The translations under genes were made by a program, and so were the position numbers. Positions 3,394 to 54,445 of a stretch of DNA of 64,000 bases are shown here, piece after piece. Source of the stretch: Rhabdophis nuchalis (lineage: Eukaryota; Chordata; Lepidosauria; Squamata; Natricidae); NCBI GenBank assembly GCA_039707465.1, contig CM077644.1, positions 187,798,462-187,862,461 of the forward strand. The letters are read 5' to 3'. The notes beneath the pieces were generated by a model that worked only from the letters and a program-made list of their open reading frames with translations, had not been told where the DNA came from and searched no databases. How positions within the stretch are numbered: position 1 is the stretch's first letter; each line of letters opens with the position of its first letter.

Positions 3394-5705
3394 TTATTTT
3401 TCTATACCGCGTCCTCTCCCCTGGGGGACTCGGAGCGGTGCACAGGGAAAAATTAAAACAAACATAAAATATATACATAAATAAATACAATAAAAACAGA
3501 TTAAATCAACTGTCCCTGCACTAAAATCCCCATTTTTAAAATTAACATTCCCTAACCCCTGAGGTAGAGACTAACCTAGGCCGGCCAAGCAGAAGAAGTG
3601 AGTTTTTAATTTCTGACGGAAGGAGCGGAGGTACGTAGTTGTTCTAATGTCGGGGGGAAGGTCGTCCACAGAGAAGGCCCTTCCCCTGGGCGTCGCCCGC
3701 TGACAAAGTCTAGTGGACGGCACCTGGAGAAGTCCCTTTCTGTGGGAGCGAATCGGCCGGGAGGATGTATGGGGCAGAATCCGATCCCGCAGATAGCTAG
3801 GTGCCGAGCCATGGAGCGCTTTAAAGATGAGAACTAGCACCTTGAAGCGCACCCGAAAGACGACAGGTAGCCAGTGCAGCTCGCGCAAGAGCAGTGTTAC
3901 ATGGGTATACCTTGCGGTACCCATTATTGCTCGCGCGGCTGCATTCTGGACCAGCTGAAGTCCTCGGGTGCACCTCAAGGGGAACCCCATGTAAAGAGAG
4001 TTACAATAGTCCAGTCGGGATGTCACGAGAGCATGAGTGACTGTGCGAAGGGCATCCCGATCCAATAGGGGGCGCAACTGGCGAACCAGGCGAACCTGGT
4101 AAAACGCCCTCCTGGCCACGGCTGTCACTTGATCTTCCATGGACAGCCGGGCATCCAGGAGGACACCCAAGTTGCGCACCCCATCCACAGGGGCAAGATG
4201 TTCGCCCCCTATGGCCAGCGATGGGATCAGCTGGTTGAATCGGGCAGCCGGAAACCACAGCCACTCGGTCTTGGTCGGGTTGAGCCTGAGTCCGTTACTT
4301 CCCATCCAGATCCGTACGGCTTCCAGGCACTGGCACATCACCGCTACGGCATCGTTGGGGTGGTTTGGGGTAGATATATACAGCTGAGTATCATCAGCGT
4401 AGAGATGGTACTCTACCCCAAAACCATGGATGATCTCACCCAGCGGCTTCATATATGTGTTGAACAGGAGAGGCGAGAGGACCGACCCCTGAGGCACCCC
4501 ACATGTGAGGGGTCTCGAGGTCGACCTCTGCTCTCCTGCCAACACAAATTGCGATCGGCCAGAGAGGTAGGAGGAGAACCACCGTAAAACGGTGCCTCCC
4601 ACTCCCAACCCCCCCAGCCGATGCAATAGGATACCATGGTCGATGGTATCGAAAGCCGCCAAGAGGTCTAATAGGACCAGGATGGAGGAACAACCCCCAT
4701 CTCTGGCCCTCCAGAGATCATCGACCAACGCGACCAATGCCATCTCGGTGCTATGCCCGGGCCGAAAGCCGGACTGGCGTGGGTCTAGATAATCAACTTC
4801 CTGCAGGTGACGGGGAAACTGTTGTGCCACCACACTCTCAACAACCTTCGCCAAAAAGGGAAGGTTGGAGACTGGACGATAGTTGGTTAATAAAGCTGGA
4901 TCCAAAGAGGGCTTCTTAAGGAGGGGCCTCACCATAGCCTCTTTTAGGGAAGCAGGTAAGGAACCCTCACTTAAGGATGCGTTGACAACCTCTTGGAGCC
5001 AGCCTCGTGTCACCTCCCAGGATGCCAGTACAAGCCAGGAGGGACACGGGTCCAATAAACATGTGGTGGCTCGCAATCGCCCACGTAACCTGTCCATATC
5101 CTCGGAAGTAACAGAGTCGAACTCCTCCCAAACAAGATCTGTCCCGTGGCATCCCACTGGGCCATCAATGGAGGCTAACTCATTCTGTATCTGAGCGATT
5201 TTCTCCTGCAGAAAAATCACAAATTCCTCTGCTCTACCCTGTAGCGGGGCTTCCCGCACCCTCTGTTGAAGGAGGGAGCGGGTCACCCTAAACAGGGCGG
5301 CAGGGCGGTTTTCTGCGGATGCTATGAGAGTGGCACAATGATGACGTTTGGCCACTCTCAGTGCCACAATGTAAGTCCGTAAATGGGCTCTTACCTGTGT
5401 CCGGTCAGATTCGAACGGGTAGACCTCCATCTTCTCTCTAGGCATCTCTTGCGGCGTTTCATCACCCCCAGCTCCTCGGTAAACCAAGGAGCCAGGGTGG
5501 CTCGCCGCCGCAAGAGAGGCCGCAAGGGCGCGACCCGATCCAAGGCTCCCGTGGTCGCAATATTCCATGCGGCCACGAGGTCCTCCATCGGGGCGCGGGT
5601 CAGGGGTACAGGAAGTGGCCCAAGCGCCGTCTGGAACCCATCAGGGTCCATCAGGCGCCTGGGGCAGAACCAAATAGGTGACTCAGGTTCCGCCTCCCCA
5701 CGGAA
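3390..5705 (-). mobile_element. L2-type non-LTR retrotransposon, 5'-truncated, with long open RT frame
   Basis: The minus strand encodes the end of the endonuclease linker, a reverse transcriptase and the conserved L2 C-terminal domain, then a short 3'UTR ending in a GC-rich hairpin and an AATAAA-like, TATC-repeat tail. The RT motifs [22 protein letters not shown] and YADDTQLYIS identify the L2/CR1 group, and the C-terminal RSHREGLL and ALWNDLPP-type motifs favour L2. Homology stops near 5705, where the longer copy at 22248 continues into its endonuclease, so this copy is 5'-truncated. It sits end to end with an ORF1-only element at 5741. Confidence 0.88.
3571..5568 (-). CDS. L2-type reverse transcriptase ORF (665 codons, open)
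   Basis: This polyprotein fragment copies element RNA into DNA at a nicked target (target-primed reverse transcription). Residues about 1-100 are the linker after the endonuclease. The RT core spans roughly 200-480, with the first catalytic Asp in AFDTIDHG near residue 303 and the YADD pair near 388-391. The C-terminal domain follows, to the stop at 3571. The frame is open throughout, unusual among copies in this window. The true N-terminus is missing: the first Met is only the first in the open frame, and upstream homology at 5391-5651 is in another frame, so a frameshift lies near 5400-5450. A late motif reads AFSVDDLPPD where other copies have AFSVAGPALWNDLPPD, showing an in-frame deletion. 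It is probably inactive because it lacks an endonuclease. Confidence 0.85.
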   Translation of the reverse strand: MEYCDHGSLGSGRALAASLAAASHPGSLVYRGAGGDETPQEMPREKMEVYPFESDRTQVRAHLRTYIVALRVAKRHHCATLIASAENRPAALFRVTRSLLQQRVREAPLQGRAEEFVIFLQEKIAQIQNELASIDGPVGCHGTDLVWEEFDSVTSEDMDRLRGRLRATTCLLDPCPSWLVLASWEVTRGWLQEVVNASLSEGSLPASLKEAMVRPLLKKPSLDPALLTNYRPVSNLPFLAKVVESVVAQQFPRHLQEVDYLDPRQSGFRPGHSTEMALVALVDDLWRARDGGCSSILVLLDLLAAFDTIDHGILLHRLGGLGVGGTVLRWFSSYLSGRSQFVLAGEQRSTSRPLTCGVPQGSVLSPLLFNTYMKPLGEIIHGFGVEYHLYADDTQLYISTPNHPNDAVAVMCQCLEAVRIWMGSNGLRLNPTKTEWLWFPAARFNQLIPSLAIGGEHLAPVDGVRNLGVLLDARLSMEDQVTAVARRAFYQVRLVRQLRPLLDRDALRTVTHALVTSRLDYCNSLYMGFPLRCTRGLQLVQNAAARAIMGTARYTHVTLLLRELHWLPVVFRVRFKVLVLIFKALHGSAPSYLRDRILPHTSSRPIRSHRKGLLQVPSTRLCQRATPRGRAFSVDDLPPDIRTTTYLRSFRQKLKTHFFCLAGLG

Positions 5706-5740: not shown

Positions 5741-6671
5741 TTTTTTAATTGAAAAAGTTTTATTGGTTTTACATTTTTTAACAGGATAGGGTAATGGTTA
5801 CAAAGAAATTTTGAGAGCATTCACGTTAGAGTCGTCGGACCTTCCGAGACCTCAAAATACACAATAAAAAAGTTATCATAGAAAACATTTTCCATACCAC
5901 TACAAGATGAAAGCAAGTACATTTACCAAAATTCTCCGTTCCATGCTGTCAGACATTTACAAAAAGTCCAGATAGAAATATTATGCAAAGTTGTTCAAGA
6001 AAAATCAAGGCAAAGTTATTTTTTTGATCTAAGTCTTTTGGCTATTGTATCTTCTTTCTCTCCTCCCTGGCCCCCCGTGGGCAGGGCCGTGGCCCCCTCC
6101 GTCCCCCCTGGATCTTCCCCCAGGATAGAGGAATGTTTTTTAAAAAAGGCTTCCGCCTCAGCAAGTGTTTTAATCCTCACTCTTCCTCCTTCCCAGAACA
6201 CCAGCATCCCTTCAGGCGTCATCCACTTGAACCAAATCCCGTGATCAAACAAGGTTTTAGACAAGAAAGAAAATTTCTTTCTTGAATCTCTAATTTTTCT
6301 AGGGATCTGCTTCAAGATAGTGACCGTTTTTCGTTGATAAGTTAAAGGTTTCTCTCTCTGCGCTTTCAGGATTTCCTCTCTGGTTGACCTTCTAACAAAT
6401 TTCACATGTATCTCTCTAGGCACTTCATTTATCCTGGCATATGCTGAATTAATTCTGTAGGCTAGGTCAATGTCCCCCCTGATCTCATCCTTAGGTTTTT
6501 GTAAATAGTCTGCTAAAATTGTGCTCATAAGACCAGGGAGGCATTCACCAGATTCCTCAGAAACATTTTGAAATCTCAAAAAGTATGTCATTCTTTCCAT
6601 ATCCATCCTAGACACATGCCCATATATTTCCACAACCTCATTAGTAACATTTTTAATGTTTAATGTTTAAT
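5741..6671 (-). mobile_element. ORF1-only L1-derived (HAL1-like) element, copy 1, 5'-truncated
   Basis: On the minus strand the element carries the C-terminal two-thirds of an L1-type ORF1, then a 3'UTR of about 270 bp ending AATAAAACTTTTTCAATT and an A-run. No ORF2 sequence lies between the ORF1 stop and the tail. A 15-bp target-site duplication, CAGACATGATTTTTT, flanks it at 5726-5740 and 6672-6686, typical of L1-style target-primed insertion. Its 3'UTR aligns along its length with the copies ending at 50402 and 51973. The 5' end is truncated inside the ORF1 coiled-coil region. Confidence 0.85.
6016..6633 (-). CDS. L1 ORF1p-like RNA-binding protein, N-terminally truncated
   Basis: The product resembles the L1 ORF1 protein, which coats element RNA and acts as a nucleic-acid chaperone. 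The visible 205 residues start at the end of the coiled coil. They continue through an RRM-like domain (ERMTYFLRFQNVSEE near residues 14-28, then EIHVKFVRRSTREEILKAQR) and the C-terminal domain (ILKQIPRKIR, FDHGIWFKW, EGMLVFWEGGRVRIKT), ending in a Gly-rich then basic tail. The frame is open to its stop at 6016. The Met used here is internal; the frame runs on to the truncation point near 6671. It differs from the intact copy at 49280 by scattered substitutions only. Confidence 0.82.
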   Translation of the reverse strand: MEIYGHVSRMDMERMTYFLRFQNVSEESGECLPGLMSTILADYLQKPKDEIRGDIDLAYRINSAYARINEVPREIHVKFVRRSTREEILKAQREKPLTYQRKTVTILKQIPRKIRDSRKKFSFLSKTLFDHGIWFKWMTPEGMLVFWEGGRVRIKTLAEAEAFFKKHSSILGEDPGGTEGATALPTGGQGGEKEDTIAKRLRSKK

Positions 6672-6777: not shown

Positions 6778-7872
6778 AGTAATCAGAATAGAATAACAGA
6801 GTTGGAAGGGACCTTGGAGGTCTTCTAGTCCAACACCCTGCCTAGGCAGGAAACCCTACACCACTTCAGACAAACGGTTATCCAACATCATCTTTAAAAC
6901 TTCCAGTGTTGGAGCATTCACAACTTCTGGAGGCAAGTTGTTCCAGCTTAATTATTCTGTCAGGAAATTTCTCCTCAGTTCTAAATTGCTTCTCTCCTTG
7001 ATTAGTTTCCAGCCATTGCTTCTTGTTCTATCCTCAGGTGCTTTGGGGAATAGTTTGACTCCCTCTTTCTTCTTTGTAGCAACCCCTGAAATATTGGAAC
7101 ACTGCTGTCATGTTTTCCTTAGTCCTTCTTATATTTTCCTTAGTCCTTCTTTTCATTAAACTAGACGTACCCAGTTTCTCCAACCATTCTTCATATGTTT
7201 TAGCCTCCAGTCCCCCAATCATCTTTGTTGCTCTTCTCTGCATTCTTTCTAGAGTCTGCACATCTTTTTTACATCGTGGCGACCAAAACTGAATGCAGTA
7301 TTCCAAATGTGGCCTTACCAAGACGTTGTAAAGTGGTATTAAAATTTCACATGATCTTGATTCTATCCTTCTGTTTATGCAGCCTAGAACTGTGTTGGCT
7401 TTTTTGGCAGCTGCTGCACCCTGCTGACTCATATTTAAATGGTTATCCACTAGGATTCCAAGATCCCTCTCAGTTACTACTATTGAGCAAGGTACCACCT
7501 ATACTGTACCTGTGCATTTTGTTTTTCTTGCCTAAATGTAGAACCTTACTTTTTTCACCATTGAATTTCATTTTATTAGATAGCGCCCAGTGTTCAAGTT
7601 TGTCAAGATCCTTTTGTATCTTAAGCCTATCTTCTGGAGTGTTGGCTATTCCTGCCAGCTTTGTGTCATCTGCAAATTTGATGAGTTCCCCGTTTTTCCC
7701 CTCATCCGAATCATTGATGAAGATGTTGAAGAGTACTGGGCCTAAAACAGAGCCTTGGGGTATTCCACTGGATACTTCCCTCCATGTAGATGCAGTTCCA
7801 TTGAGGACTACACATTGAGTGCAGTTGGTCAGCCAGTTGGTTATTACTTTGTTTACTTCTAGGTGTTCGCTG
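6778..7872 (-). mobile_element. CR1 LINE 3' half with RT fragment
   Basis: Minus-strand translation gives an RT fragment with GIPQGSVLGPVLFNIF and the catalytic FADDTKLAG, then the CR1 C-terminal region ([30 protein letters not shown]) and the typical CR1 3'UTR, read on the plus strand as GTTGGAAGGGACCTTGGAGG. The 3' end carries the ATTCTATTCTG-type short repeat characteristic of CR1. The copy is 5'-truncated near 7872 and contains a duplicated stretch near 7115-7150. RT uses FADD, unlike the YADD of the L2-type copies, so this is a separate lineage. Confidence 0.9.
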
Positions 7873-40517: not shown

Positions 40518-40883
40518 AGTACACTTCGGACTTCACTTCCGGCTTCCGGAGGCAACGGACAGGTCTCTGACTCGTCCGCCGCCTGTTTCTCCAATGGTGC
40601 CTTCGGGCGCTCAGGGGCTTTGCAAAAGAGCCCCCTAACCGGACAGACGGCTTGCGGGACACCCCTACCCAGACAGCTGTCGGGGGGGCGTACTCGCCTC
40701 GTCCCAGGAGTTGGGGAACAAAATGCGGGGGCAAGTGTCCCTTTTGCCTATGGAGCGCCGGAACAACAGAAAATGAAGAAGAAGGCTGAAATCCGGGGCT
40801 GCAGGAAGCACAGAGGCTCTGTGGTCTGCTGTGTGGTTAGTGAGTTGATTTTGAGATTTTGATGCCTTCAGTTCTTTTAAGAA

Positions 40884-41520
40884 AATAATAATAATAATAT
40901 TTAATATTTATAAAACCGCACCCTCTCCCCACAGGGACTCGGGGCGGTGCACAGGTAGAATAAAAACAATAAATACATACAAACAATTCTAAAAACAAAT
41001 TAAACATAACCTGCGCTAAAATTCCCCATTAAAACTAAACAGTCCTAATTTCCCAGTAAAAACCCCTAAGACAGAGAGACTTATCCTAGGCCAGCCAGAC
41101 AGAAAAAGTGAGTTTTTAATTTAAGACGGAAGGAGTGGAGGTCCGTGGTCGTCCTAATATCGGGGGGAAGGTCGTTCCAGAGGGCCGGGCCCGCCACAGA
41201 GATAGCCCTTCCCCTGGGTGTCGCCCGCTGACAATGTCTAGTGGACGGCACCCGGAGAAGTCCCTCTCTGTGGGAGCGAATCGGCCGTGAGGATGTATGA
41301 GGCAGGATCCGATCCCGCAGATAGCTAGGTCCCGAGCCATGGAGCGCTTTAAAGATGATAATTAACACCTTGAAGCGCACCCGGAAGACGACAGGTAGCC
41401 AGTGCAGCTCGCGCAAGAGCGGTGTTACATGGGTAAACCTAGCGGTTCCCATAATTGCTCGCGCGGCTGCGTTCTGGACTAGCTGAAGTCTCCGGGTGCA
41501 CCTCAAGGGGAGCCCCATGT
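40884..41520 (-). mobile_element. L2-type LINE 3' fragment nested in ORF1-only copy 2
   Basis: The minus-strand frame 41081-41518 is open and encodes 145 residues of the C-terminal domain (MGLPLRCTRRLQLVQNAAAR to the stop, including PSYLRDRILPHTSSRPIRSH). It is followed by the 3'UTR, the hairpin at 40917-40950 and a (TTA)n tail. It is very close to the fragment at 13997, so the two are likely of similar young age. Its insertion splits the 5'UTR of the ORF1-only element. Confidence 0.88.
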
Positions 41521-42017
41521 AGAAGAATGGAGGGGGAGTTTGGAAAAGAGAAAAAACCCCTGAGATTAAGCTCTATTTTAAAATCCTCCCCGGGTTCGGG
41601 AAGAGGCAAAAAACAACATCCGATTTTGAATAAGTGAAACTGAAGTCTATTGAATGTGGATTAGCCGTTGTTACTTAGTATCTGAGTTTCGCTGCAAGAG
41701 AAATGACTTTCACTAGTTCTGCCTGACCACCAAAGGGCGGGGAAACATGGCGCTTCTTTGCTCCCAGCTGAGAACTTTATCTTTTCCCTCACTGTTACAA
41801 GCTTGGAAAATTTACTGAAAAACCAATGCAAGTGACTTTTGGGGTTTCTCCCAACGTGTGCCTTCTTTTATATCAGAACTGATTATAAAAACTTTTTCTC
41901 CCTGGAATTTAAGCGGATTCTTTTTAACTTTGGACACTGACTTTTCCTTTTCTTGGATCTCACGAGCTCCTCGCCCTGCGGACGCCATATTAGTGTCAAG
42001 AACTTAAAACTCTCATT

Positions 42018-42690
42018 ATGGAAATGCTACAATCAATAGAGGGAATTCTCCAAAGCATAATGGAAGAAATAACAGAGATTCGGAAGGACAGGTTAAGATC
42101 AAAATCTGAGCTTTTGGAGATGCAAGGGACACTAGTGGGAAACAAACAAAAAATTGAAGGGGGGAAGGGGGGGTAGCGGAGATGGGGGGAAAGATAAAGG
42201 AGTCACAAAAAGAATTAATAGATTTTGATGGCTGTATGTTTAAAATCCATTTTGAAAGAATGCCTTACAATTTAGCATATCCCAGAACAAATGATGTATC
42301 CAGAGAGAGATATATTAAACATGTAAGAGGGCTGACAAGGGAAGAGACCCCGAGAGCACGGCACAATAGTTTATTGATATATGAGCTAAAAGAACTTGCC
42401 AGTCTGAAACAGGTCTCGAAAAATATACCAGACAATAAGAATTATTCCTTCTTATTGGAAAAAAAATTACTATATAAAAATGGGATCTGCGACAGATGGT
42501 TCATGTCTGAAGGAATGTTGGTGCTCTGGGAGGGGGGGAGAGTAAGAATTAAAACAATTGAAGAGGCGCAAGCCTTTTTCTTTTTCAAAAAAATAATATG
42601 CCTCAATCCTGGAGGAAGAAAATGGGGGAACGGGAGGGGCCATGGCACCACCCACTGGTGGGACGGAGGATGAGGATACAATATTTGCAA
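42018..42690 (+). pseudogene. Broken ORF1p of HAL1-like copy 2
   Basis: From an ATG at 42018 the frame encodes a coiled-coil-like start (MEMLQSIEGILQSIMEEITE). It breaks in G-runs near 42158-42192 and resumes from 42182 with an altered RRM region (FERMPYNLAYPRTND in place of FERMSLFLRFQNIPE-type sequence). The C-terminal domain is well kept (LKQVSKNIPDNKNYSFLLEK, SEGMLVLWEGGRVRIKT). Part of the RRM is deleted compared with the intact copy at 49280, so it cannot make a normal protein. Confidence 0.75.
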
Positions 42691-42977
42691 GACTCAGATT
42701 ACAAAAATGATTTCCTTTAATATACTGTAACTTTTTCTTTCGGATGTTTTGTAGAAACAATTTATTGAATGCATGAATTTTATGAAATGATACATATGTA
42801 ACTCCTGCCACCTTAAATAGAAAAATAATTAATCTTTGTATGAAGCCTTGGAGGCGGCCTGCACCTCCGATATGGATGCCTCTAAAATGTTCTTTTACAC
42901 CCTATATACCTTTTCCCTGTAAAAAAATGTTAAAACCAATAAAACTTTTTTTGCACAAAAAAAAAAGAGTACACTTC

Positions 42978-43811
42978 AAATTACAAATCAAAGGAATCTT
43001 ACGTCTTAGTAGATAATGTATATATTAAACTATTACTCTTCTAAAATATGTTTCTGTATCAACAAGAGATTTGCTGTTGATGTTGTTAAAAACTAAACTA
43101 AACAATTGATGAGAAAAATAATAATTTGACTAAAAGATCTCAGAACTGGAGACTGAAAGAGGGTAGTAGAAATATTCTTTTGATTCTCTGCTCACTCACC
43201 TGAAAAAAAAAGGGAATGATTTCTTGTTGGCTTCTTCATTGGGTTAGTTGTTCACACATTCTCATAGATGTCTTTCTTCCCATTCTTGAAACTGGAAGAA
43301 AGTATTGTCAACACTTCTGCCCCCACAGTGATCCTGCAAGGGATATTGTAGTCTGCTGTGAGGAAGCAGGAGACAACCTCCCCTCCCCTCTCTTTTATAT
43401 GTCTGTGTTAAAGGGCCAGACATACTTCATACCACCACTTGTCTTTGATATTGGTAATTTTTCTCCCCCTCACACTGTCTCTCACCTCCTCCCTTGTTCA
43501 AAGAATTATCTGATTATAGAAAAGTAGTGATTTGTTTGAGGGGGAGGGAAACAACACTAGTAACTAATTGGAAAAAAACCCTAAAGCATTTGAATTATCT
43601 GAAAATCTTGCCTGGGCAAAAAAAATGAATTTATTTCAAATCAAAATAATAAAGCCAATGCAGGGCTTGTGATCCAATAAGGTTTTAAGAGTTATAACGC
43701 CATTGCTGAGTTCTCTTGTGCCTATTTACCTACATCTGCAGGAAGAAGAAAACTCCTGGAAGAGTCACTGGTAAACCAGAAAAGGAGAAGGGGAAAGGAA
43801 GTTTTACAAAA
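42978..43811. other. No gene recognised
   Basis: AT-rich with one 103-codon open frame at 43216-43527 that shows no motif. Confidence 0.5.
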
Positions 43812-44330
43812 TACAGAATAACAGTGTTGGAAGGTACCTTGCCAATTGCACAGTAACAGATAGGACAGCACTCCAGAGGATTAATATCATTGCCCAGAGG
43901 GTCATTGTTTTCCCTTTCCTCTCTTTGGAAGAGCTTTATAGCTCCTGCTGCCTTAAGAAAGCTCAAAACTTTCTTAAAGATTCATCTCATCCTGGGCCCC
44001 CTTTTTTTGAACTATTACCATCTGGCAGACGGTACAGGATAATAAAAACAAGGACAAATAGGCTGAAAAACAGCTTCTATCGTAAGGCAATAATCATATT
44101 GAATTCTATGGTATAGTGCAATATTGGGTTTTCAATTTCAATGATATAGAATGTAAAGGATGTATGTTTGTGTTTTTATCTTTATAGTTCTAACATACAC
44201 TGAAGAGAGCATTTAATTTCGTTGTACTATGTGCAATGACAATAAAGTAAACTAATTAATTAACTAACCTTGAAGGACTTCTAGTCTAGCCACCTGCTCA
44301 AGTCTGCCACCCAATCTGAGGGGCTGGACC
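43812..44330 (-). mobile_element. CR1 3'-end fragment split by another LINE tail
   Basis: Plus-strand ACAGAATAACAGTGTTGGAA at 43812 and CTTGAAGGACTTCTAGTCTA at 44269 are the two halves of the CR1 3'UTR, as seen uninterrupted at 6790-6835. ACCTTG occurs at both junctions (43836-43841, 44267-44272) as a short duplication. Confidence 0.7.
43842..44266 (+). mobile_element. 3' end of a further non-LTR retrotransposon (Rex1-like?)
   Basis: A 64-codon plus-strand frame (43925-44116) has the motif FELLPSGRRYRIIKTRTNRL followed by KNSFYRKAI. This is the C-terminal end of a fish/reptile non-LTR element, distinct from CR1 and L2. The tail TTTCGTTGTACTATGTGCAA then TGACAATAAAGTAAACTAA ends the insert. 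Family assignment to Rex1/Babar is from memory of the motif and is uncertain. Confidence 0.6.
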
Positions 44331-46000
44331 ATCATTTGATACTGCATCATCAAAAAATTTTAATAATATTAAAAATATAAAAATTATTTTTCTTAATATA
44401 AAATACAAAAATATGCATGAGGTTTTCTTGACAAACGGTGGCTTATCATTGCTTTTAACGTTATTAAAGTGATCCCTAACCTTTAGCATTTTGCTACACC
44501 TATATTTGCTATAGGTGTCAACTTGCTTTAGAAACATAGGTGAGGCACCTTCATGTTTGGGTGATCCTGCTGGGAATATAAACTCTTGGCATCCACTTCT
44601 AGCATTCTTCATTCATTCCCTTCGCTGCTTTAAAGAGAAAGTTAACAAATAGTGTAAATAGAAATTATCAGAATGTCCTAGAAATGTATTTATAAAAGTG
44701 TTATTTAGTTGGTGACAAATGTCCTTATAAAAATGACAATAAAGAAGAACAAGGGCCATGGTTTCTATTGTGCCCATGCCTTAGGAACAATATCATACTT
44801 TAAAAGGAATTGTCTTTTATTTCCTTTCAAAATAGCTGAGGGGAAGGACATTCAAATGAGATAATTAAATTAAAGCTCTCTTAAATTTAGAAGTCAAAAT
44901 TTGGTATAAATATGAAACTGTTTTGGGAGCTCAAGTTTAATTGCTTATAAATACAGTATATCCTGTGAGAGGGCAACAGTTTTGGTTTGACCTGGGTCTA
45001 AAATCCTTTTTATTAAGGCTAATTTAGCTTGATGTGGCCTTAGTTATATAATAACATCACTGGAAAATCCATAATTTCCTTTGGGTTGCTTTTTCCCAGG
45101 AAGATTTGAAATTAACTAGCAGTATTACAGGATTGTGGAACACTTTCAGGCAATAAATAAAAATATTTATCCAAAGACTGAATTCAAGTTTACTGCCTCC
45201 TTTATACCGCATTTTCAGACACAGCAGGTAACCTGGAAGATGCTTTTTAAGAATTTAATTTGGACTCTCTAGGATAGCTATGTTGTTATATGGTTCCTAG
45301 TTCTATCTTGTTTAGCAGTAGCACTCAGGCTTTAAGCTACAAACAGCTGAATTGCAGCAGATGTGCTCCTTGTGCAAAATGAAATAAATGCATAGCTGAC
45401 CCTGATCTCTGCATTTCAGGATACATGATCTAAGTGAGCAGTTCAGCTTCAGGAAAAGCTCACTTATCTGTATTCACTTTAGACTTAATATATAGTAGGG
45501 AAAGAACATCAAGTACTTTCAGACTTACATTTGAAAGCCTTTAATTCATGTTAAGTGGTAACACTGCTCTTCTTCCTCAAGGCAGTCTGGCTTAATAAAG
45601 TTATTTATCATGCTTCCAGAAGGTAAGTCTGCTTGCAACTGCTGGAGTGGGTAAGGAAAGGTTTTAATTTTGAGAAGCTCTGATCCAAATCTCAAATCAG
45701 CTGTAGGGTTTGTTTAATCTGTAACTCTATACCTTCTTACCTCGGAGCACAATTCCTCATAAACTAAGTGATCTTAATTTATGAAAGAATGGATTCTCTC
45801 TTATCTTCACTTCATTGCTTAGAAGAAAGGCAGATGTAAATATGAATAGTAGTTAGCAGAATGAAGCAAAATATTTATACTAAGTTGGTCTTTTCACAAG
45901 GTTATGTCAGTAATTAAAGGTAAATTCCGATATTTCCCATGATCTTGAAAACAGATTTCTATATCTATTGCCTCAAAGAGAAAATATAGCTACCACCTAC
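44331..46000. other. No gene recognised
   Basis: AT-rich intergenic sequence; no frame or repeat was assigned. Confidence 0.5.
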
Positions 46001-46352
46001 TTAAAGGTAAAGATAAAAGTTCCCCTTGCACATATGTGCTAGTTGTTCCTAGCTCTAGGGGGCAGTGATCATCTCAGTTTCTAAGCCAAAGAGCCAACGC
46101 TGTCTGACGACATCTCCATGTTCATGTGTCCGGCATGACTAAATGTTGAAGGCGCACAGAATGCTGTTAATTTCCCACCAAAGTGGTCCCTATTTGCATG
46201 TTTTAATGTGCTTTTGAACTGCTAGGTTGGCACAAGCTGGGGCAAGTAACGTGAAGTCACTCCGCTACACAGCACTAGGGATTTGAACCGCTGAACTGCC
46301 AACCTTTCTGATCGACAAGCTCAGCATCTTAGCCACTGAGCTATCATGTCCC
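46001..46352 (-). mobile_element. tRNA-derived squamate SINE, full length, minus strand
   Basis: On the minus strand the element starts GGGACATGATAGCTCAGTGG, with an A box (TAGCTCAGTGGCTAAGATG) and B box (GGTTCAAATCC). A long body follows (CAAGTTACTTGCCCCAGC reading inwards; GTCATGCCGGACACATGAAC). It ends near TAAAGGTAAAG at 46001. Structure and length (352 bp) fit a tRNA-headed SINE common in squamates. Confidence 0.8.
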
Positions 46353-46371
46353 TTACCACTTACTTACAGTA

Positions 46372-46525
46372 CAGAAGTGGGCTGCCAATTTTTTTACTAC
46401 TGGTTCGGGCGTGCACTCACACTTCTGCATATGCGCATAAGCTTCCGGGCGGATGAGCAGAGCCTCCCACCGCTGCTATTACTAGTTCAGCCAATCTGGG
46501 CCAAACCGGCAGCAACCCACCTCTG
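46372..46525. mobile_element. hAT-type MITE (154 bp)
   Basis: Ends CAGAAGTGGGCTGC and GCAGCAACCCACCTCTG are inverted repeats. A perfect 8-bp duplication TTACAGTA flanks the element (46364-46371, 46526-46533). It is the same family as the element at 61945. Confidence 0.9.
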
Positions 46526-46533
46526 TTACAGTA

Positions 46534-47183
46534 TACTAAAAATGTTATTTTTTTCTCTCTTATATTATTTGTTATTTATTAAAGCCAACCTGCTTGCTCA
46601 AAAATATTTCCCTGGTGTTTTGTTTTCTATTTTGATTGTAGTTAAACCTGATATTTCTCCCATTTAGGTCAATTGGTGAAAGAATATCAACACATTGCAC
46701 ACCCAGCAGAAGTGTATGTAATATATTTGGTAGTTTCCCAAAATGAGTTACAGTCAGATGTTTACTTTTTCATATTTAAAAGTTTGAGCAAAGAATTCCA
46801 GCTGTGAGATACCCGGAAAAATCCAGCTGCACCGCTTTAAAGGGGAGATGGATGTTTGTAAGAGCTGCCCGCTTTTCCTTTCAATCAATTACCATAACAA
46901 ATTACTGGATATATGCCAGGAAAGATACAAAAGCTCAATGTGCAGCATTGTTTTGGATTTTGTGAACTGTTACATTTGAAGCCTGTCCTAGATAAAACCC
47001 AGATGGGGGGGAAAGAAAAGAACAGCTGGCATTGCTTTTTTCTTGCAGAAATGATAGCAATTCAATTTTCTCCAATAAAGTGTATTAGTGCTTGGTTCTT
47101 AGAAGGGTATTTGAGGACTGGAGGAACCTGGAAATCAACTTCATTGTAACCATCAACATCCAGGGCTTTTCTTATACTACAGG
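46534..47183. other. No gene recognised
   Basis: AT-rich intergenic sequence between a MITE and an L2 copy. Confidence 0.5.
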
Positions 47184-48426
47184 TATTTATTTATTTATTT
47201 TATTAGATTTCTAGTCCGCCCCCTCTCCCCGAAAGGACTCGGGGCGGTATACAGGTAAAATTAAAACTACTAAAACCATAACAATACATACAAAGTTAAA
47301 ATCAAATTAAATAGTGTTCTGTACAAATTTATAAAAGTTAAAACTAGACACAAAAAACCGAATAAAATAATTTAAAATTACAGACTGGGGCGAGAAGCAT
47401 GAAGTTAGGCCAAGTCGGCTAGATGGAACAGGTGAGTTTTGAGTTTCTGTCAAAAGGAGCGGAGGTCCGTGGTCGTTCTGATATCAGGGGGAAGGTCATT
47501 CCAAAAGGTCGGGCCCATCACAGAGAAGGCCCTTCCCCTGGGTGTTGCCCGCTCGCATTGCCTAGTGGACGGCACCTGGAGAAGACCCTCTCTGTGAGAG
47601 CGAATCGGCCGAAGGGATGTATGGAGCAGGATATGATCCCGCAAATAACTAGGTCCTTTGCCATGGAGCGCTTTAAAGATGATGACCAACACCTTGAAAT
47701 GCACCCGAAAGGCCACAGGCAGCCAGTGCAGTCTGCGCAGGAGCGGTGTTACGTGGGAGTATCTGGTAACTCCCAGAACTGCCCGCGCGGCCGCATTTTG
47801 GACCAGCTGCAGCCTTCGAGTGCATCTCAAGGGGAGTCCCATGTAGAGAGCATTACAGTAGTCTAGATGGGACGTCACAAGCGCATGAGTGACTGTGCGA
47901 AGGGCATCCCGGTCCAATAAGGGACGCAACTGGCGCACCAGACGGACCTGGTGGAACGCTCCCCTGGCCACGGCTGTCACATGGTCCTCCATTGACAGCC
48001 GGGCACCTAGGAGGATGCCCAAGTTGCGTGCCCGATCCACGGGGGCCAGATGTTCACCCCCAATGGCCAGTGATGGAATCAACTGGTTGAACCGGGGCGC
48101 CGGTAGCCACAGCCACTCAATCTTGGACGGGTTGAGCTTGAGTCTGTTCCTTCCCATCCAGATCCGTACGGCTTCCAGACACCAGGACATCACTTCGACG
48201 GCATCATTGGGGTGGTTTAGGGTAGAGATGTATAGCTGAGTATCATCAGCATACAGATGGTAATCTACCCCAAAACCACAGATGATTTCGCCCAGCGGCT
48301 TCATATATGTATTGAACAGAAGAGGCAAGAGGACCAACCCCTGAAGCACCCCACAAGTGAGAGACCTCAAGGTCGACCTCTGCCCCCCTGCCAATACAAA
48401 TTGCGATCAACAGGAGAGGTAGGAGG

Positions 48427-50402
48427 GCTTCCGGCTCCGGCGGCGACGGGCGAACTTAGGGTTCGCTCGCCGCTTTGTTCCTTTTCCCGCCCCCCCACGG
48501 GGGCGAGAAGCCCCTTGTTTGGGGCTTCTCCCGTAAAGCCGGCTCGACAGGGAAGCCCCCCCCCCACGGCAGTGGGGCGAGCGACCCTGCTCCTCGGCTT
48601 AGGCGGAAGAGGACATGCTGCGGGGGGTCTTCCCTTCGCCAAAGGTTGGCGGCACCATTTAATACTATGAAGAGAGACGATCGGAAGAGTCGGGAGGCTT
48701 TTCGGGACCTCAGCTGCGAGCGGAGAGTGAGCGTTTAAAACTTTTTTTCCTGTACTGTCAGCCGGGCTGAAAGGGACTGGAGGGGGGTGTTTGTTTCCAA
48801 CCCCCCCCCCCTTGGACTAAAAGCGGCACTCGGAAATGCCTCGTTGAGAGGAATCGGAAACTTTTAATCTGGATGGTCTTTAACAAGGGAAAGTACTTTG
48901 CGGCTTGTTGCAATTATGTTTCTAGGTCTGGCTGAAACAGTTTCTTTTTTGCTTTTTAACCGCTTTCTCCCTCGGGCTCTGAGTTTGGGCGGAAAATGGC
49001 TTCTCTTTGTCCCCGACTGACTATGACCTATGGAAAATTACCAGTGTCTCTTTGTGATTTGGACTTCCTCTAATTATTGATGAAGAATTTTCTTTTTTTG
49101 GATTTGTGTTTTCCTTTCTGGATTGCCTTCGTTATTATACCTATGGAGTTGGAAAAGTGTTTCTCTACTGGTTTCTGAATTTTGCAGCTATACAACTTTA
49201 AGAACTTTGGACTCCTGATCTGCCTACCAGCCCCACCCTAAAAACGCCATTTTATTGGCACGGATTTTAACAGCTAAACATGGCACAAGAAGAAACGCTG
49301 GCACGCCTTGAACAAAGAATGACTGCCCTTGAATCTGTTATACAAAATTTGGTATTAGAAATTAAGGCCCAGAGGGCAGAAAATGTCAACTTTAAAAAGG
49401 AATTATTGGACACTCGAAAACAAGTGCTTGAGAATACACAGAAGAATGAAGAATTGAAAGGGGGGCTGGAGGGGGCTAAGGGAGAGATTAAAAATGTTTC
49501 TAATGAGGTTGTGGAAATAAATGGGCACGTGACTAGGATAGATATGGAAAGGATGACATATTTTTTGAGATTTCAGAATGTTTCTGAGACGGATGGTGAA
49601 TGTCTCCCTGATCTTATGAGTACAATTATTGCAGACTATTTACATAAACCTAAAGATGAGATCAGAGGGGACATTGACCTAGTCTACAGAATTAATTCTG
49701 CATATGCCAGGATGAATGAAGTACCCAGAGAGATACATGTAAAATTTGTTAGAAGGTCAACCAGAGAGGAGATCTTGAAGGCGCAAAGAGGGAGTCCTAT
49801 GATTTACCAACAAAAGGAGGTTACCATCTTGAAGCAGATTCCAAGAAAGATTAGAGAAGCTAGAAGGAAATTTTCCTTCTTGTCTAAAACATTGTTTGAT
49901 CATGGGATCTGGTTCAAGTGGGTGATACCCGAAGGGATGCTGGTGTTCTGGGAAGGAGATAGAGTGAAGATTAAAACAGTTGCTGAGGCGGAAGCCTTTC
50001 TTAAAAAACATTCCTCTGTCCTGGGAGAAGATCCAGGGGGGGCAGGGGGAGCCATGGCCCCGTCCGCTGGGGGCCCGGGGGAGAAGGGGGAAGATACAAT
50101 TGCCAAGAGACTTAGATCTAAAAAATAACTTTGCCCTTGTTTTTTTTTGAGTAATATTGTATGATATTTGTAATCTGGATTTTTGTAATTGACTGAGAGT
50201 ATATAATTGAAAAATTTAGGAATATGTACTTGCTCCCAGCTTGTAGTGTTATGTGAAATGTTTTTTTTTTCTTTCTTTTTAATAATGTAACTTGAGGTAC
50301 CGGAGGAGCCGAAGACTTTGACGTGACTACTCTCAAAATTTCTATGTAACCCTTACCCTACCCCACAAAAAATGTAAACTCAATAAAACTTTTTCAATAT
50401 AA
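48427..50402 (+). mobile_element. ORF1-only L1-derived (HAL1-like) element, copy 3, full length and intact
   Basis: The 1976-bp insertion is defined exactly by an 18-bp duplication AACAGGAGAGGTAGGAGG (48409-48426, 50403-50420) in the RT of an L2. It has a CpG-rich 5'UTR of about 850 bp, one intact ORF1 (49280-50128), a 3'UTR of about 270 bp, AATAAA at 50382-50387 and an end TTTTTCAATATAA. ORF2 is absent, and there is no junk where it might have been: the 3'UTR matches that of copies 1 and 4. The 5' end CTTCCGGCTCCGGCGGCGAC resembles that of copy 2, showing a family-defined start. It must be moved in trans, because it has no RT or endonuclease. Confidence 0.92.
49280..50128 (+). CDS. L1 ORF1p-like protein, intact (282 aa)
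   Basis: The product is predicted to form trimers on RNA and act as a chaperone in retrotransposition, as L1 ORF1p does. Residues about 1-80 are a coiled coil rich in E/K/L/N heptads (LARLEQRMTALESVIQNLVL). The RRM-like domain spans about 88-165 (RMTYFLRFQNVSETDGECLP, then REIHVKFVRRSTREEILKAQ). The C-terminal domain covers about 170-245 (VTILKQIPRKIREARRKFSF, FDHGIWFKW, EGMLVFWEGDRVKIKT). The tail is Gly/Pro-rich and ends KRLRSKK. The ATG at 49280 is the first in the frame and begins the coiled coil. Human L1 ORF1p is 338 residues, so this is shorter, mainly in the coiled coil. No stop or shift is present. No ORF2 follows. Confidence 0.9.
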   Translation: MAQEETLARLEQRMTALESVIQNLVLEIKAQRAENVNFKKELLDTRKQVLENTQKNEELKGGLEGAKGEIKNVSNEVVEINGHVTRIDMERMTYFLRFQNVSETDGECLPDLMSTIIADYLHKPKDEIRGDIDLVYRINSAYARMNEVPREIHVKFVRRSTREEILKAQRGSPMIYQQKEVTILKQIPRKIREARRKFSFLSKTLFDHGIWFKWVIPEGMLVFWEGDRVKIKTVAEAEAFLKKHSSVLGEDPGGAGGAMAPSAGGPGEKGEDTIAKRLRSKK

Positions 50403-50758
50403 AACAGGAGAGGTAGGAGGAGAACCACCGTAAAATGGTGCCCCTCACCTCCAACCCCTCCAGTCGATGCAATAGGATACCATGGTCGATGGTATCAAAA
50501 GACGCCGAGAGGTCTAATAGGACCAGGATGGAGGAACAACCCCCATCTCTGGCCCTCCAGAGATCATCCACCAACGCGACCAATGCCGTTTCCGTGCTGT
50601 GACCGGGCCGGAAGCCGGACTGGCGCGGGTCCAGATAATCAATTTCCTCCAGGTGACGTGGAAACTGTTGTGCCACCACACTCTCTACAACCTTCGCCAA
50701 AAAGTGAAGGTTGGAGACCGGATGATAATTTACTAACAATGCTGGGTCCAGGGAAGGC

Positions 50759-51008
50759 ACAGAGATTGATTTATGTTATGTGATCCAGAAAAAAAAATCA
50801 TATCAAGAAGCAAATATAGGAAACATCAGGTTTTCTCTGATCTTTCTGAGCTCTGAGCTAGCCAATATGAATATCAATCACTGCCAGCTGAACTGCTGAT
50901 TTTAGGCTGTGAACATCTGTCTCCTAAGAACTAAAAATGGCCCACTAGTGAGCAGTTCGGTCTCACCGGAAAAACACTTAATCTCTCCCCTGGTATAGCC
51001 AACAAAAT
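50759..51008. other. No gene; direct repeat arm at 50956-50980
   Basis: It contains TTCGGTCTCACCGGAAAAAC, a near-copy of which lies at 51289-51314 (ACCGGTCTCACGGGAATAAC). Confidence 0.5.
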
Positions 51009-51150
51009 GAGGAGAGCCTGTGGCTTAGAGGTTAATACATCTACCAATATATGCAAGTAGCCCCGGTTCAAATCCCAGAAGGATATGGCTAGCTGATGAG
51101 AGCTAAATAGCTTGAAATAGATCTATATTAGTGTCCCTTTATTTCTTTGC
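51009..51150 (+). mobile_element. tRNA-derived SINE (different family)
   Basis: An A box TGGCTTAGAGGTTA (51021-51034) and a B box GGTTCAAATCC (51065-51075) are spaced as in tRNA promoters, followed by a non-tRNA body (GGATATGGCTAGCTGATGAG) and a T-rich end. It cannot fold as a complete tRNA, so it is a SINE and not a tRNA gene. Confidence 0.6.
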
Positions 51151-51959
51151 CAGTAAAACATAAATTCAACACAAAAATAGTTTGTCACAAAAGCAACTCC
51201 CTGCAAGGGCTCCTGGATTGGGGCTGAAAGGTGAAAGCGGAAGCAACATGCTCTGTCTCATAATTGAGTAGACCAGGTTGCCCTGCTAGACCGGTCTCAC
51301 GGGAATAACACTTAGTGAGAAGTTCATACCATCAAAATACCAATGATAACAATTGTGATCATGTTGATGTCAGAAATATACCCATAAGAACAAATCAATT
51401 ACATATATTGATTATATACTGTGTAATTGATTTGTTTCCTATTATAGGTATAAAAAACAGGAAGGCAGTAGATTTGAATTGTAACAGTAACACAGAATAG
51501 AGCTAACTAGCTGCTTTTTAAAATAATTATATTGAAATCTATGGAGATTCTGAGTCACCCAGGTCATGGTTGTCCCAAAGGTGCTTTGGGACAATTTTAT
51601 TGAAGATTACAATTAAAAAGATAAAAACTAATACAAACTAAAAAAAAATTAAACAAAAAAATAGAAAAGCATAAAAGAAAAATAGAAAAAAATAAATAAA
51701 TAAAAATAAGTAAATAAAAGAAAAAAATATGTAAAGAAATGACTTCTTCACAATATATGTTAATAATATATTATCTTGTCTTGAAATACAACATATGATC
51801 TCTCCAGTCCATAAATCATTTCATATCTTTAATCAAATCTTGAAAGCCTTGTCATTTAGTCCTACTCACCAAAATTCCATTAACGATTATCAACGATAAA
51901 ATATCTATTTTAACCTTGATCAAATAAGCCACCTTTATGTTTCTTCCTTTAACTTTTAA
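51151..51959. other. No gene recognised; A-rich tract at 51640-51730
   Basis: This includes the second direct-repeat arm at 51289-51314 and a long A-rich, TAAA-like tract; no coding signal. Confidence 0.5.
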
Positions 51960-51972
51960 CAATCTTGATTTT

Positions 51973-52600
51973 TTTTTCTTTTTTTGAAAAAGTTTTATTG
52001 GTTTTTACAATTTTCCAAAGGGTAAGGTAGGGGTTACAGAAACATTTTGAGAACCTTTGCGTCAGAGTCCTTGGCCCTTCCCAGGCTACATAATAAAACA
52101 TTGGTAAGAAAATTTATCAAAAAATACTACAAGATAAAGATAGGTGAATACATCATACATTTCCCATTCTACGCTGGCAGACTTGTACAAACATCCTGGT
52201 ACAAAAAGGTTAAAAAAAAATTAATAAAAAAAGAAAAAAAGCAAGCAAAGTCATTTTTTGGATCTAAGCCTCTTGGCAATTGTATCTTCTTTTTCTCCCT
52301 CCTGGCCCCCAGTGGGCGGGGCCATGCCCCCCCTGCTCCCCCTGGATCTTCCCCCACGACAGAGGAGTGTTTTTTAAGAAAGGCTTCCGCCTCAACAATT
52401 GTTTTAATCCTTACTCTTCCTCCTTCCCAGAACACCAGCATCCCTTCGGGCATCGCCCACTTGAACCAAATCCCGTGATCAAACAATTTTTTGGATAAGA
52501 AGGAATACCTCCTTCTCATCTCCCTAATCTTTTTTGGGATCTGCTTCAAGATGACGACAACCTTTTGTTGGTAAATTAATGGCCCTCCTCTCTGCGCCTT
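51973..52600 (-). mobile_element. ORF1-only L1-derived (HAL1-like) element, copy 4, 5'-truncated
   Basis: The minus strand encodes the ORF1p C-terminal domain (VILKQIPKKIREMRRRYSFL, FDHGIWFKWAMPEGMLVFWE, GGRVRIKTIVEAEAFLKKHS), with a frameshift near the Gly-rich tail (about 52300). The shared 3'UTR and AATAAAACTTTTTC plus an A-rich end follow. A 13-bp duplication CAATCTTGATTTT flanks it (51960-51972, 52601-52613). It is truncated in the RRM. The 3'UTR passes directly from ORF1 with no ORF2. Confidence 0.85.
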
Positions 52601-52613
52601 CAATCTTGATTTT

Positions 52614-53142
52614 CAATCCTTTCAAATAATATCTTTGAACTTATCATTTTTTCTTTGTCTCTTATTATAAAATCTTTCAAAATGTGAATAGGTTAGTTTT
52701 GTAAATCCAATGTAGAAAAATCATCCTAGTCATTCTTTTGGTATATTATTTGAAGGAAGACTTTCCAAAAATATACTTCAATTTTTTAATGACTCTCACA
52801 CATATTTTTGTTGCTTTCAAAATATGCTCATGATCATATAGAAACACTTCATAATCCTCATGCCATTTTTAACTGTCATGTCTTAGATATTTTCCCCTCT
52901 CTTGACAGGTGATGTGATTTGATCATGTGATCCTGAACTTGGCTTGACTCTGAGTTTGAATCAGTATGCTAAGTGAATTACAAGCTAAATGTTCATGATG
53001 ACAAAACATCAAACTAGTTGAAAATGAAAAACAAAATTAGACCTATTCTCAGACGACAGTATTGATCAGTCTTCAAATACTTGGTTTACAATAAGGACTC
53101 CCATTGTTATATTAAGAGTAGTTCTTGTTTATCCTGCATAAG
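52614..53142. other. No gene recognised
   Basis: AT-rich intergenic DNA. Confidence 0.5.
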
Positions 53143-53369
53143 AGCTGAGGTGGCACAGAGGTTAGAGTGCAGCACTACAGGCTACTTCAGCTGACTGCTA
53201 GCTGCAGTTCACCGGTTTGAATCTCACTGGCTCAATGATGACTCAGCCTTCCATCCTTCCGAGGTCGGTAAAATGAAGACTCAGATTGTTGCAGGCAATA
53301 TGCTGACTCTGTAAACTGCTTAAAGAGGGCTGTAAAAGCACTATATAAGTGTAAGCACTATTGCTATAA
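53143..53369 (+). mobile_element. Sauria-type SINE (BovB-partner SINE)
   Basis: The tRNA head (GAGGTGGCACAGAGGTTAGA as A box, CCGGTTTGAATCTC as B box) is followed by CAGCCTTCCATCCTTCCGAG, GGTAAAATGAAGACTCAGAT and the 3' end CACTATATAAGTGTAAGCAC then TATTGCTATAATT. This is the characteristic Sauria SINE layout in squamates, whose 3' end is shared with BovB LINEs and is mobilised by them. It appears full length. Confidence 0.85.
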
Positions 53370-53513
53370 TTATTTAAATATGCAATGGAATAAATGCCAA
53401 GATAGCTCAAAAATATTTTTTAATTTGTTCCCATCCTTGAGAGAATTTAGAATTCAGAAGGCCAGCATTAACATTCTTGTAGAATCTTTCAAGTATGCTG
53501 GACAACAATTTCA

Positions 53514-54445
53514 TTTTAAAAGAATTTATTGGTTTTTACAAAATAATATTGGGAAAAGGGTATAGGAAAAAACGTTACATTTTAGTAGCTTCATGCCAGA
53601 GCTGGCGGTCCCCCCCAAACTTCATCATAGTACAGATTTTAGTTTAAAAAAAAAAAAGACAAGCACAATAACAAATACATTGCATATTTTCTATGTTCAT
53701 TCTTGTTTTTCCTTACCATCAATCATTATAAGATTCAAATAAATTTTTTGAATAGTATCATTTTTGAGACCTAAGTCTTTTGGCTATTGATTCTTCCCCC
53801 CCCCCCGTCATCGGGAGGGGCCGCCGCCCCCACTGTTCCTCCTTCATCGTCCCCTAGGAATATGGAGTATTTTTGAGAAAAAGCATTTGCCTCTTCTAAA
53901 GTTTTGATTCTAATTCTACTCCCTTCCCACAAAACCAACATCCCTTCTGGTAACAACCATTTGAACCAGATCCCTTTTTTAAATAGTTTCTTAGATAGGA
54001 AGGAATAATTCCTTCTCATATCTCTAATTTTCTTTGGGATTTGCTTCAAAATGATTATCTCATTGTCTTGGTATTTCAAAGGCCCTCCCCTTTGGGCTCT
54101 CAGAATCTCCTCCCTCATGGACTTCCTTAAAAATTTTACATGGACTTCTCTTGGGACATTATGTGTCGTTGCATATGCCGAATTGATTCTATAAACCAGA
54201 TCAATATCCCATGTAATTTTTCTTTATTTTTTTGAAGATAATCCGCTAATATTGTAATCATAATATCTTTGAAATCTTCTGCATCTGACTCTGGTATGTT
54301 TTGAAATCTAAGAAAAAGTGACATTCTTTCAAACTCCAATTTTGAAATATAATTCCCTAATTCTAAACTTTCTTTTTGTATTCCCTTTACCTCATTTCCC
54401 ATCCCAGCCACCCCTCCTTCCAACACCTCTATTCTTTGTTTGTTA
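53514..54445 (-). mobile_element. ORF1-only L1-derived (HAL1-like) element, copy 5, 5'-truncated
   Basis: Two minus-strand pieces carry ORF1p. 54136-54426 has the end of the coiled coil and the start of the RRM (FERMSLFLRFQNIPESDAED). 53771-54118 has the rest (EEILRAQRGGPLKYQDNEII, IPKKIRDMRRNYSFLSKKLF, PEGMLVLWEGSRIRIKT). A frameshift near 54120-54230 separates them. The 3'UTR follows at once and ends with AATAAATTCTTTTAAAA. The flanks GCTGGACAACAATTTCA (53497-53513) and GCTGGACAATTTCA (54446-54459) are a duplication with a 3-nt difference. Sequence is intermediate between copies 1/3/4 and copy 2, so at least two subfamilies exist. Confidence 0.83.

Follow-up and report, generated by a model that had tools for sequence, protein, structure and literature searches.

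The window analysed here, a stretch of 64,000 nucleotides from the squamate Rhabdophis nuchalis (assembly GCA_039707465.1, contig CM077644.1, positions 187,798,462 to 187,862,461), contains five interspersed copies of elements that carry an open reading frame of the type of ORF1 of L1 (long interspersed nuclear element 1, LINE-1) and no ORF2. We propose that they belong to an L1-derived, ORF1-only (half-L1) lineage of squamate retrotransposons of the kind without long terminal repeats (non-LTR), which would be mobilised in trans by the ORF2 protein (ORF2p) of other L1s, and we put the probability of this reading at about 0.88. The copy at 48427-50402 represents the family termed A and consists of a 5' untranslated region (5'UTR), ORF1 and a 3'UTR, as listed below. 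The same layout, with a 3'UTR of about 0.27 kb, target-site duplications (TSDs) and an A-rich tail, recurs as one unit in many dispersed copies of the source assembly (1.92 Gb in 348 contigs), to which all genome-wide counts refer. ORF2 downstream of ORF1, the hallmark of an autonomous L1, is absent from the element.

48427..50402 (+): full-length family A ORF1-only element (locus L001), with the 18-bp TSD AACAGGAGAGGTAGGAGG on both sides
48409..48426 (no strand): left TSD of this element, AACAGGAGAGGTAGGAGG, from flank comparison
48427..49279 (+): family A 5'UTR, 853 bp, beginning CTTCCGG..CTCCGGCGGCGACGGG, assigned from the sequence
49280..50128 (+): family A ORF1, 282 codons plus stop, of the L1 ORF1p type, with predicted coiled coil, RRM and C-terminal domain
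50129..50402 (+): family A 3'UTR, 274 bp, directly after ORF1, with AATAAA and terminal CAATAAAACTTTTTCAATATAA, assigned from the junction and 23-mer counts
50403..50420 (no strand): right TSD of this element, from flank comparison

The junction of ORF1 and 3'UTR across the genome

The junction was searched for with a pattern of 28 bases spanning the ORF1 stop and the start of the 3'UTR, allowing up to 3 mismatches, and with the reversed pattern as a control. While the control had no match, the pattern was found at 10,019 genomic sites, in agreement with the view of the initial annotation that the recurrence of the same junction exceeds chance. A 23-mer of the family A 3' end, CAATAAAACTTTTTCAATATAAA, was present at 7,642 exact sites, and a 28-mer from within the 3'UTR, which was used so that copies were not picked by ORF1, at 1,021 exact sites. 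For a closer look, we took the 42 exact matches of this 28-mer on C1:1-116.15 Mb, the stretch spanned by 100 listed exact junction places. The exact junction was present at 34 of them, judged by position among the matches listed, and the other eight were read as sequence: in seven, ORF1 is present and the junction differs by one change; the last (L053) is N-masked upstream and retains AAAAAATAACTTTGCC. Thus, all 42 sites keep the end of ORF1 and none carries ORF2. The count of copies with ORF2 between the ORF1 stop and this 3'UTR, which had been suggested as a check, therefore came out at zero of 42, and the junction would indeed belong to the master element, as had been supposed. With up to 3 mismatches allowed, the pattern for the 5' end matched 1,077 places in the genome and its reversed control none. 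An exact 5'-end match was located within 3.9 kb at 22 of the 42 sites, in one case at an enlarged distance, so at least about half of these young copies appear to keep their 5' end.

ORF2 was additionally looked for with three ORF2 endonuclease peptides as probes, comparing 34 ORF1-only loci with eight L1 loci. The 34 loci comprise 22 of the families A, B and C described below (including the window copies L001 and L067) and 12 further ones, the latter with about 0.8 kb of downstream sequence. None of them showed an ORF2 endonuclease in sense after ORF1, and the same probes matched all eight L1 loci, three of which were the sources of the probes. In L008, the endonuclease matches lie past the 3' end of the family A copy and on the strand opposite to it, the weak match in L081 lies upstream of ORF1, and the match in L104 (17 residues, E 0.99) was taken as noise. 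TSDs were identified at all eight family A loci, four by script and four by eye from the flanks.

The encoded protein and its relatives

The predicted ORF1p starts with a helix of 91 residues (2-92), followed by an RRM at about 95-185 and a C-terminal domain reaching to about residue 243; the model was obtained from a 17-row alignment with a mean predicted local distance difference test score of 81 and a predicted template modelling score of 0.55. A profile built from alignment A1, four rows of which are L1 ORF1p, matched LINE-1 ORF1p structures with E values of 8.6e-9 to 5e-7, and tblastn of ORF1p against the ORF1 of ORF2-bearing L1s gave E values down to 5e-43. By profile and model, the predicted product is an L1-type ORF1p. 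Annotated relatives of the protein are present in the snakes Ahaetulla, Crotalus, Erythrolamprus and Pantherophis, where they bear names such as 'uncharacterized protein', and in the lizards Sphaerodactylus and Phrynocephalus. The relatives taken from outside the genome are P0001-P0003, P0004-P0008 (P0004 being from Ahaetulla prasina) and P0009-P0014, the last group being left out of the trees; for all of them only the ORF1 sequence is known, not the layout of the element.

Relation to ORF2-bearing L1s of the same genome

ORF1 followed by ORF2 was read in the L1s F1 (L048), F5 (L065), F4 (L073), L074, L075 and L077, whose ORF1p are 28-40% identical to that of family A over the matching part. 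These autonomous L1s are like the element in the kind of ORF1p they encode; F5 also has CTTCCGG upstream of ORF1, and F1 has the same last 17 bases before the tail as family A. Unlike the element, they carry ORF2 and possess ORF1 frames of 360-401 codons from stop to stop where fully seen, and the 5'UTRs of F1 and F5 and the 3'UTRs that were read are otherwise dissimilar to those of the element. Among 30 loci with an L1-type reverse transcriptase (RT) motif (3 kb each), nine downstream stretches and five upstream stretches, no L1 carrying ORF2 had the 5'UTR, ORF1 or 3'UTR of the element, and no ORF2-bearing parent was found among the loci examined.

A comparison of ORF1p with the full-length L1s of the genome, as proposed in the initial annotation, sets the element apart from the six ORF2-bearing L1s: in the main tree, from which L068q was left out for its long branch, 11 ORF1-only rows face these six across one branch with support values of 99/97. 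In a reduced tree without the two longest branches, from which L1_F1 and P0008 as well as L068q were thus absent, 12 rows with P0001 counted in are separated from five L1s at 99/98; an earlier tree had contained L068q and counted P0001 as ORF1-only. P0003-P0005 appear as sister to the ORF1-only clade, and P0006-P0008 fall outside the ORF1-only branch. With P0003-P0005 as outsiders, the ORF1-only rows and P0001 group together at 97/96 when all rows are used. The narrower arrangement of the 11 ORF1-only rows as a clade of their own was rejected by the approximately unbiased (AU) test (p ~1e-57) because P0001 nests inside. The trees contain no mammalian L1 rows, and within this genome the ORF1p sits beside the L1s read.

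Copies in the window

Copies were located by BLAST of 48427-50407 and by tblastn of its ORF1, and these searches recovered all five. Apart from the family A element, the following features belong to them:

40528..42967 (+): full-length family B element (locus L067) with 5'UTR, ORF1 remnant and its own 3'UTR ending CCAATAAAACTTTTTT; TSD AGTACACTTC
about 42020-42710 (+): family B ORF1 remnant with the RRM core deleted and the frame broken, the deletion and frame break being common to sister copies
about 40893..41520 (-): CR1/L2-like LINE 3' fragment inside the 5'UTR of the family B element, strand taken from a LINE-type frame at 41081-41518(-)
5743..6657 (-): 5'-truncated family A-related copy from ORF1 to 3'UTR, 84% identical, with 205 open codons; TSD CAGACATGATTTTT
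51984..52603 (-): older 5'-truncated copy, a short 3' piece with ORF1 C-terminus and 3'UTR, 77% identical; TSD CAATCTTGATTTT
53514..~54445 (-): still older 5'-truncated ORF1-only copy with 70% identity in its ORF1 part; imperfect TSD GCTGGACAA..TTTCA

All five copies are flanked by TSDs, one of them imperfect with three extra bases on one side (53514-54445), and none has ORF2 after its ORF1 part. This much of the initial annotation stood; only one of the five has an ORF1 that is intact from start to stop (49280-50128). Two copies are full-length (48427-50402 and 40528-42967) and the other three 5'-truncated, the ORF1 part of 53514-54445 being spread over two frames. The 3'UTR that had been described as common to all five is alike along its length in three (48427, 5743 and 51984). 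In the 40528 and 53514 copies, the BLAST match to the 48427 element ends inside ORF1, and the visible resemblance is limited to the CCAATAAA-type end. The window copies represent several lineages rather than the single family that had been assumed, and the initial annotation understated the diversity, with at least three families in the genome. The CR1/L2-like insert of the 40528 copy is missing in its sister copies L068, L069 and L071, in which element positions 363 and ~992 are joined directly.

At least three families, their age and the selection on ORF1

By sequence, at least three families (A, B and C) can be told apart. Family A seems to have been copied recently. Its eight best matches including the window copy, which were chosen for similarity, are 98.7-100% identical to the latter; seven of them have their 5' end in common, at element position 1-3, with 98.7-99.3% identity for the six besides the window copy, and the eighth (L006) begins at element position 756. 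Over about 430 bp, identity is 97.2-99.3% for the seven copies that had been selected with the 3'UTR 28-mer and could be read upstream. The ORF1 of 282 codons is kept in seven of the eight best matches. The ratio of nonsynonymous to synonymous substitution rates (dN/dS) of the window ORF1 is 0.26 at dS 0.70 versus the intact family A ORF1 of L070, and 0.23 at dS 0.42 versus the 205-codon frame of 5743-6657, a value that includes decay after insertion.

Family C is formed by the top eight matches (L078-L085) among the 20 examined from a search with the distant ORF1 relative P0003, and its ORF1p are 47-53% identical to that of family A over the tblastn match. In seven of the eight loci, ORF1 is followed directly by a 3'UTR of about 250 bp that has CCAATAAAACTTTT or a decayed form of it at its end, and in L079 other sequence interrupts the element close to the end of ORF1. 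The junction pattern of family C was found at 361 sites at up to three mismatches. The remaining 12 matches, 39-46% identical to P0003, likewise show an ORF1 end, a 3'UTR and a CCAATAAA-type end, with AATAAA mutated in two. Values of dN/dS are 0.13-0.21 within family C (five of the eight loci used) and 0.13-0.19 between families A and C at dS 2.0-2.9, where synonymous sites are near saturation. These ratios indicate that the ORF1p of families A and C is under purifying selection in the ORF1-only state.

Family B consists of the window copy at 40528 (L067) and L068-L072. A block of 42 residues of the RRM core is missing in all five aligned copies, and the deletion is also present in the inner copy of L002. 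Regarding the frame, the start was readable in four copies: in L067, L068 and L072 the frame ends at one and the same position within a G-run, and in L069 a separate frame shift lies just ahead of this position. Because the best genomic matches are 98% alike and the deletion and broken frame are common to the copies, recent copying of family B seems to have taken place while it lacked a functional ORF1 itself. Selection on ORF1 is less clear in this family than in A and C: dN/dS amounts to 0.39-0.49 versus its nearest relative, the L002 inner copy, to 0.33-6.4 on 7-15 changes among family B copies, and to 0.16-0.27 versus family A. Since the last range resembles that of A versus A, it is the comparison with the L002 inner copy that carries the case for relaxation in family B.

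Starts of the CTTCCGG type are present in families A and B and in two of the eight family C loci, as well as upstream of ORF1 in the F5 L1; this word near the 5' termini of A and B resembles what we take to be an ETS site, and a role in the promoter is a guess. An ACGCCATWTTA-like word, presumably resembling a YY1 site, is located in the 5'UTRs of A and B just before the ORF1 start (window positions about 49240 and 41985).

Some family A copies appear to lie within other elements. The copy in L002 is seemingly inside a family B-type element, that in L003, judged by eye, seemingly inside another ORF1-only-looking 5'UTR, and that in L008 probably inside an antisense L1.

3' ends, a candidate donor and the proposed mobilisation

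A readable 3' end was obtained in seven of 11 L1 downstream stretches (F1, F2, F3, F4, F5, F6 and F9). F1 is the only one of the seven that ends with AATAAAACTTTTTCAAT before the A-rich tail, which are the same 17 bases as in family A, the remainder of its 3'UTR being unrelated to that of family A. The F1 end is present at 996 sites at up to one mismatch. Because these last 17 bases are equal, we infer that F1 is the likeliest ORF2p donor.

In the mechanism we envisage, the RNA of the element would be transcribed from its own 5'UTR and coated in cis by the ORF1p it encodes, and the ORF2p endonuclease and reverse transcriptase of a co-resident L1 would then copy it by target-primed reverse transcription. 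ORF2p of the F1 type would recognise family A RNA by its end. Family B, with its RRM deleted and its frame broken, would presumably borrow ORF1p as well as ORF2p.

In four F1-tailed loci, L087, L088, L094 and L095 (C1:66.27 Mb, C1:73.62 Mb, C2:45.61 Mb and C2:63.87 Mb), recognisable F1 ORF2 is limited to its last 15-19 residues. The four loci are alike upstream of this ORF2 end and possibly represent an internally deleted F1 derivative.

Weighing the evidence and alternative explanations

Several points weigh against our interpretation, beginning with the fact that the case is built from genome sequence alone. Using the single ORF1p sequence, Pfam returned no significant family, and a search of the PDB placed LINE-1 ORF1p first at E values of 0.3-0.5, which are not significant. 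In the reduced tree with P0003-P0005 as outsiders, the split of 12 rows from 10 others reached 89/94 and was not starred. The search with P0003 gave 32,124 first-look candidates, 138 of which were scored and 20 of these 138 examined. The junction count, for which mismatches were allowed, and that of the L1-type RT motif (3,565 exact genomic sites), for which none were allowed, are on different scales. As to selection, near-identical family A copies yield dN/dS values of 0.27-0.54 on 3-5 changes each, too few to use; a ratio below 1 in the comparison of A with C could in part reflect an ORF2-bearing past of both, and the ratios within A and within C escape this objection only if ORF2 was not lost many times. 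The case for F1 as a donor consists of 17 bases, six of which are the poly(A) signal, and draws on seven L1 3' ends, with F2 and F3 being close relatives. In addition, F1 copies for which the tail was the sole criterion show 73-97% identity, so that an age as young as that of family A is not evident for F1.

Beyond the half-L1 nature of the element, we tentatively suggest, at slightly less than even odds, that all families form one ancient ORF1-only lineage. It would have lost ORF2 a single time, outlived its parent L1, switched or tuned its 3' end to the L1s that supply ORF2p, come to outnumber them, and finally spawned family B, giving a dependence of three tiers. If ORF2 had been lost repeatedly, A, B and C would each be a short-lived derivative of its own L1, with the parents extinct or unsampled. 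We consider this unlikely, as the layout and the CCAATAAA-type end, intact or decayed, recur where readable in the three families, in the 12 further loci and in the window copies; the recurrence of CTTCCGG-type starts in all three families, for C at two of the eight loci, the position of the ORF1-only rows on one side of the 99/97 branch versus all six L1s sampled, and the finding of no ORF2-bearing member among the loci examined point in the same direction. Repeated loss has a precedent in the mammalian HAL1s, which arose several times according to PMC5753468. Moreover, each genome search scored no more than between 40 and 150 candidates, so that parents could be missed, and P0003-P0005 as sister to the clade are known from ORF1 alone and not from their layout.

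Mobilisation by a LINE from outside the L1 clade (CR1/L2 or BovB) instead of L1 appears quite improbable. TSDs of 10-20 bp, A-rich tails and AATAAA are L1-like features. The element has all of these, and family A has its exact 17-base end in common with an L1 family. Potential helpers of the other kind would be at hand, since CR1/L2-like LINEs with long RT frames surround the window copies and BovB is abundant in squamates, as stated in PMC6050309. Finally, an ordinary L1 family whose ORF2-less copies are products of splicing or template switching has very little in its favour, because, even though other L1 families with ORF1 and ORF2 coexist in the genome and F1-tailed copies with little recognisable ORF2 occur (L087, L088, L094 and L095), it is contradicted by the 42 of 42 count with ORF2 upstream at none of the 3'UTR-selected sites, a single junction within 3 mismatches is common to 10,019 sites, in the L1s examined ORF1 identity does not exceed ~40% and 3'UTR similarity is confined to the terminal 20-33 bases, and none of the 30 RT-motif loci (3 kb) matches the element.

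Comparison with known systems

PMC5753468 describes HAL1 as a non-autonomous L1 derivative that encodes ORF1p only and had several origins in mammals. Activity of HAL1 in rat is reported in PMC8535693, which also lists CR1, BovB and L2 as successful LINEs of reptiles; the same three are named for squamates in PMC6050309. Like mammalian HAL1 as described there (PMC5753468), the element is derived from L1, has ORF1 without ORF2, is present in multiple copies and would be non-autonomous. The HAL1-like layout claimed in the initial annotation is therefore well matched by the L1-type ORF1p, the absence of ORF2, the TSDs, the A-rich tails and the many dispersed copies, and is found here in what appears to be an old and diversified squamate clade. 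In line with the suggestion of the initial annotation that this may be a half-L1 lineage separate from the mammalian one, the element differs from mammalian HAL1 in its squamate host, in its ORF1p sitting beside the L1s of the same genome, in families at dS 2.0-2.9, in the lack of an ORF2-bearing parent among the loci examined, and in one family without a working ORF1. Several families, apparent purifying selection without ORF2, the missing parent and an amplified offshoot with broken ORF1 go beyond what had been noted initially.

By title, none of the papers listed on HAL1 and half-L1s concerned reptiles, Repbase and Dfam lying outside this search, and a query combining HAL1, snake, LINE and retrotransposon found nothing. 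A lasting gag-only non-LTR lineage that uses the reverse transcriptase of another element, as we propose for the squamate element, is known in HeT-A of Drosophila. HeT-A belongs to the Jockey clade and is telomere-specific, whereas the squamate element is dispersed with TSDs.

On our reading, half-L1s would not be confined to mammals, a squamate genome containing thousands of copies, and the ORF1-only state seems old enough for a split into several families. Because ORF1p and ORF2p would have been separated for long in this clade, the cis role of ORF1p on RNA becomes directly testable. Families A and C with ORF1p versus family B without it offer natural material on when ORF1p is needed, and the 17-base end defines a candidate pair of donor and recipient. 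For genome annotation, the implication is that thousands of such elements may at present be classified as broken L1s.

Other observations

The 5743 copy is adjoined by an open frame of 665 codons at 3571-5568 (-) with an RVT_1 domain (E 3e-34) and a GVPQGSVLSP-type motif, which we take to be a long CR1/L2-like reverse transcriptase; related frames are also present elsewhere in the window. Gag-like frames lie beside element copies in L070 (3-623, -) and L071 (251-1084, +), that of L070 having a CCHC zinc knuckle, and probably belong to LTR retrotransposons. Near-identical L1 loci at C1:2-17 Mb were considered as a sign of recent L1 activity, and this was dropped because several of them are about 30 kb apart and alike over the whole 3 kb, as in segmental duplication. 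Some of the L1 loci in this region (L011-L016, L025, L029, L031, L049 and L051; C1 ~2-17 Mb) stand beside exons, which we assume to resemble those of vomeronasal type 2 receptors, and perhaps belong to a segmentally duplicated receptor cluster.

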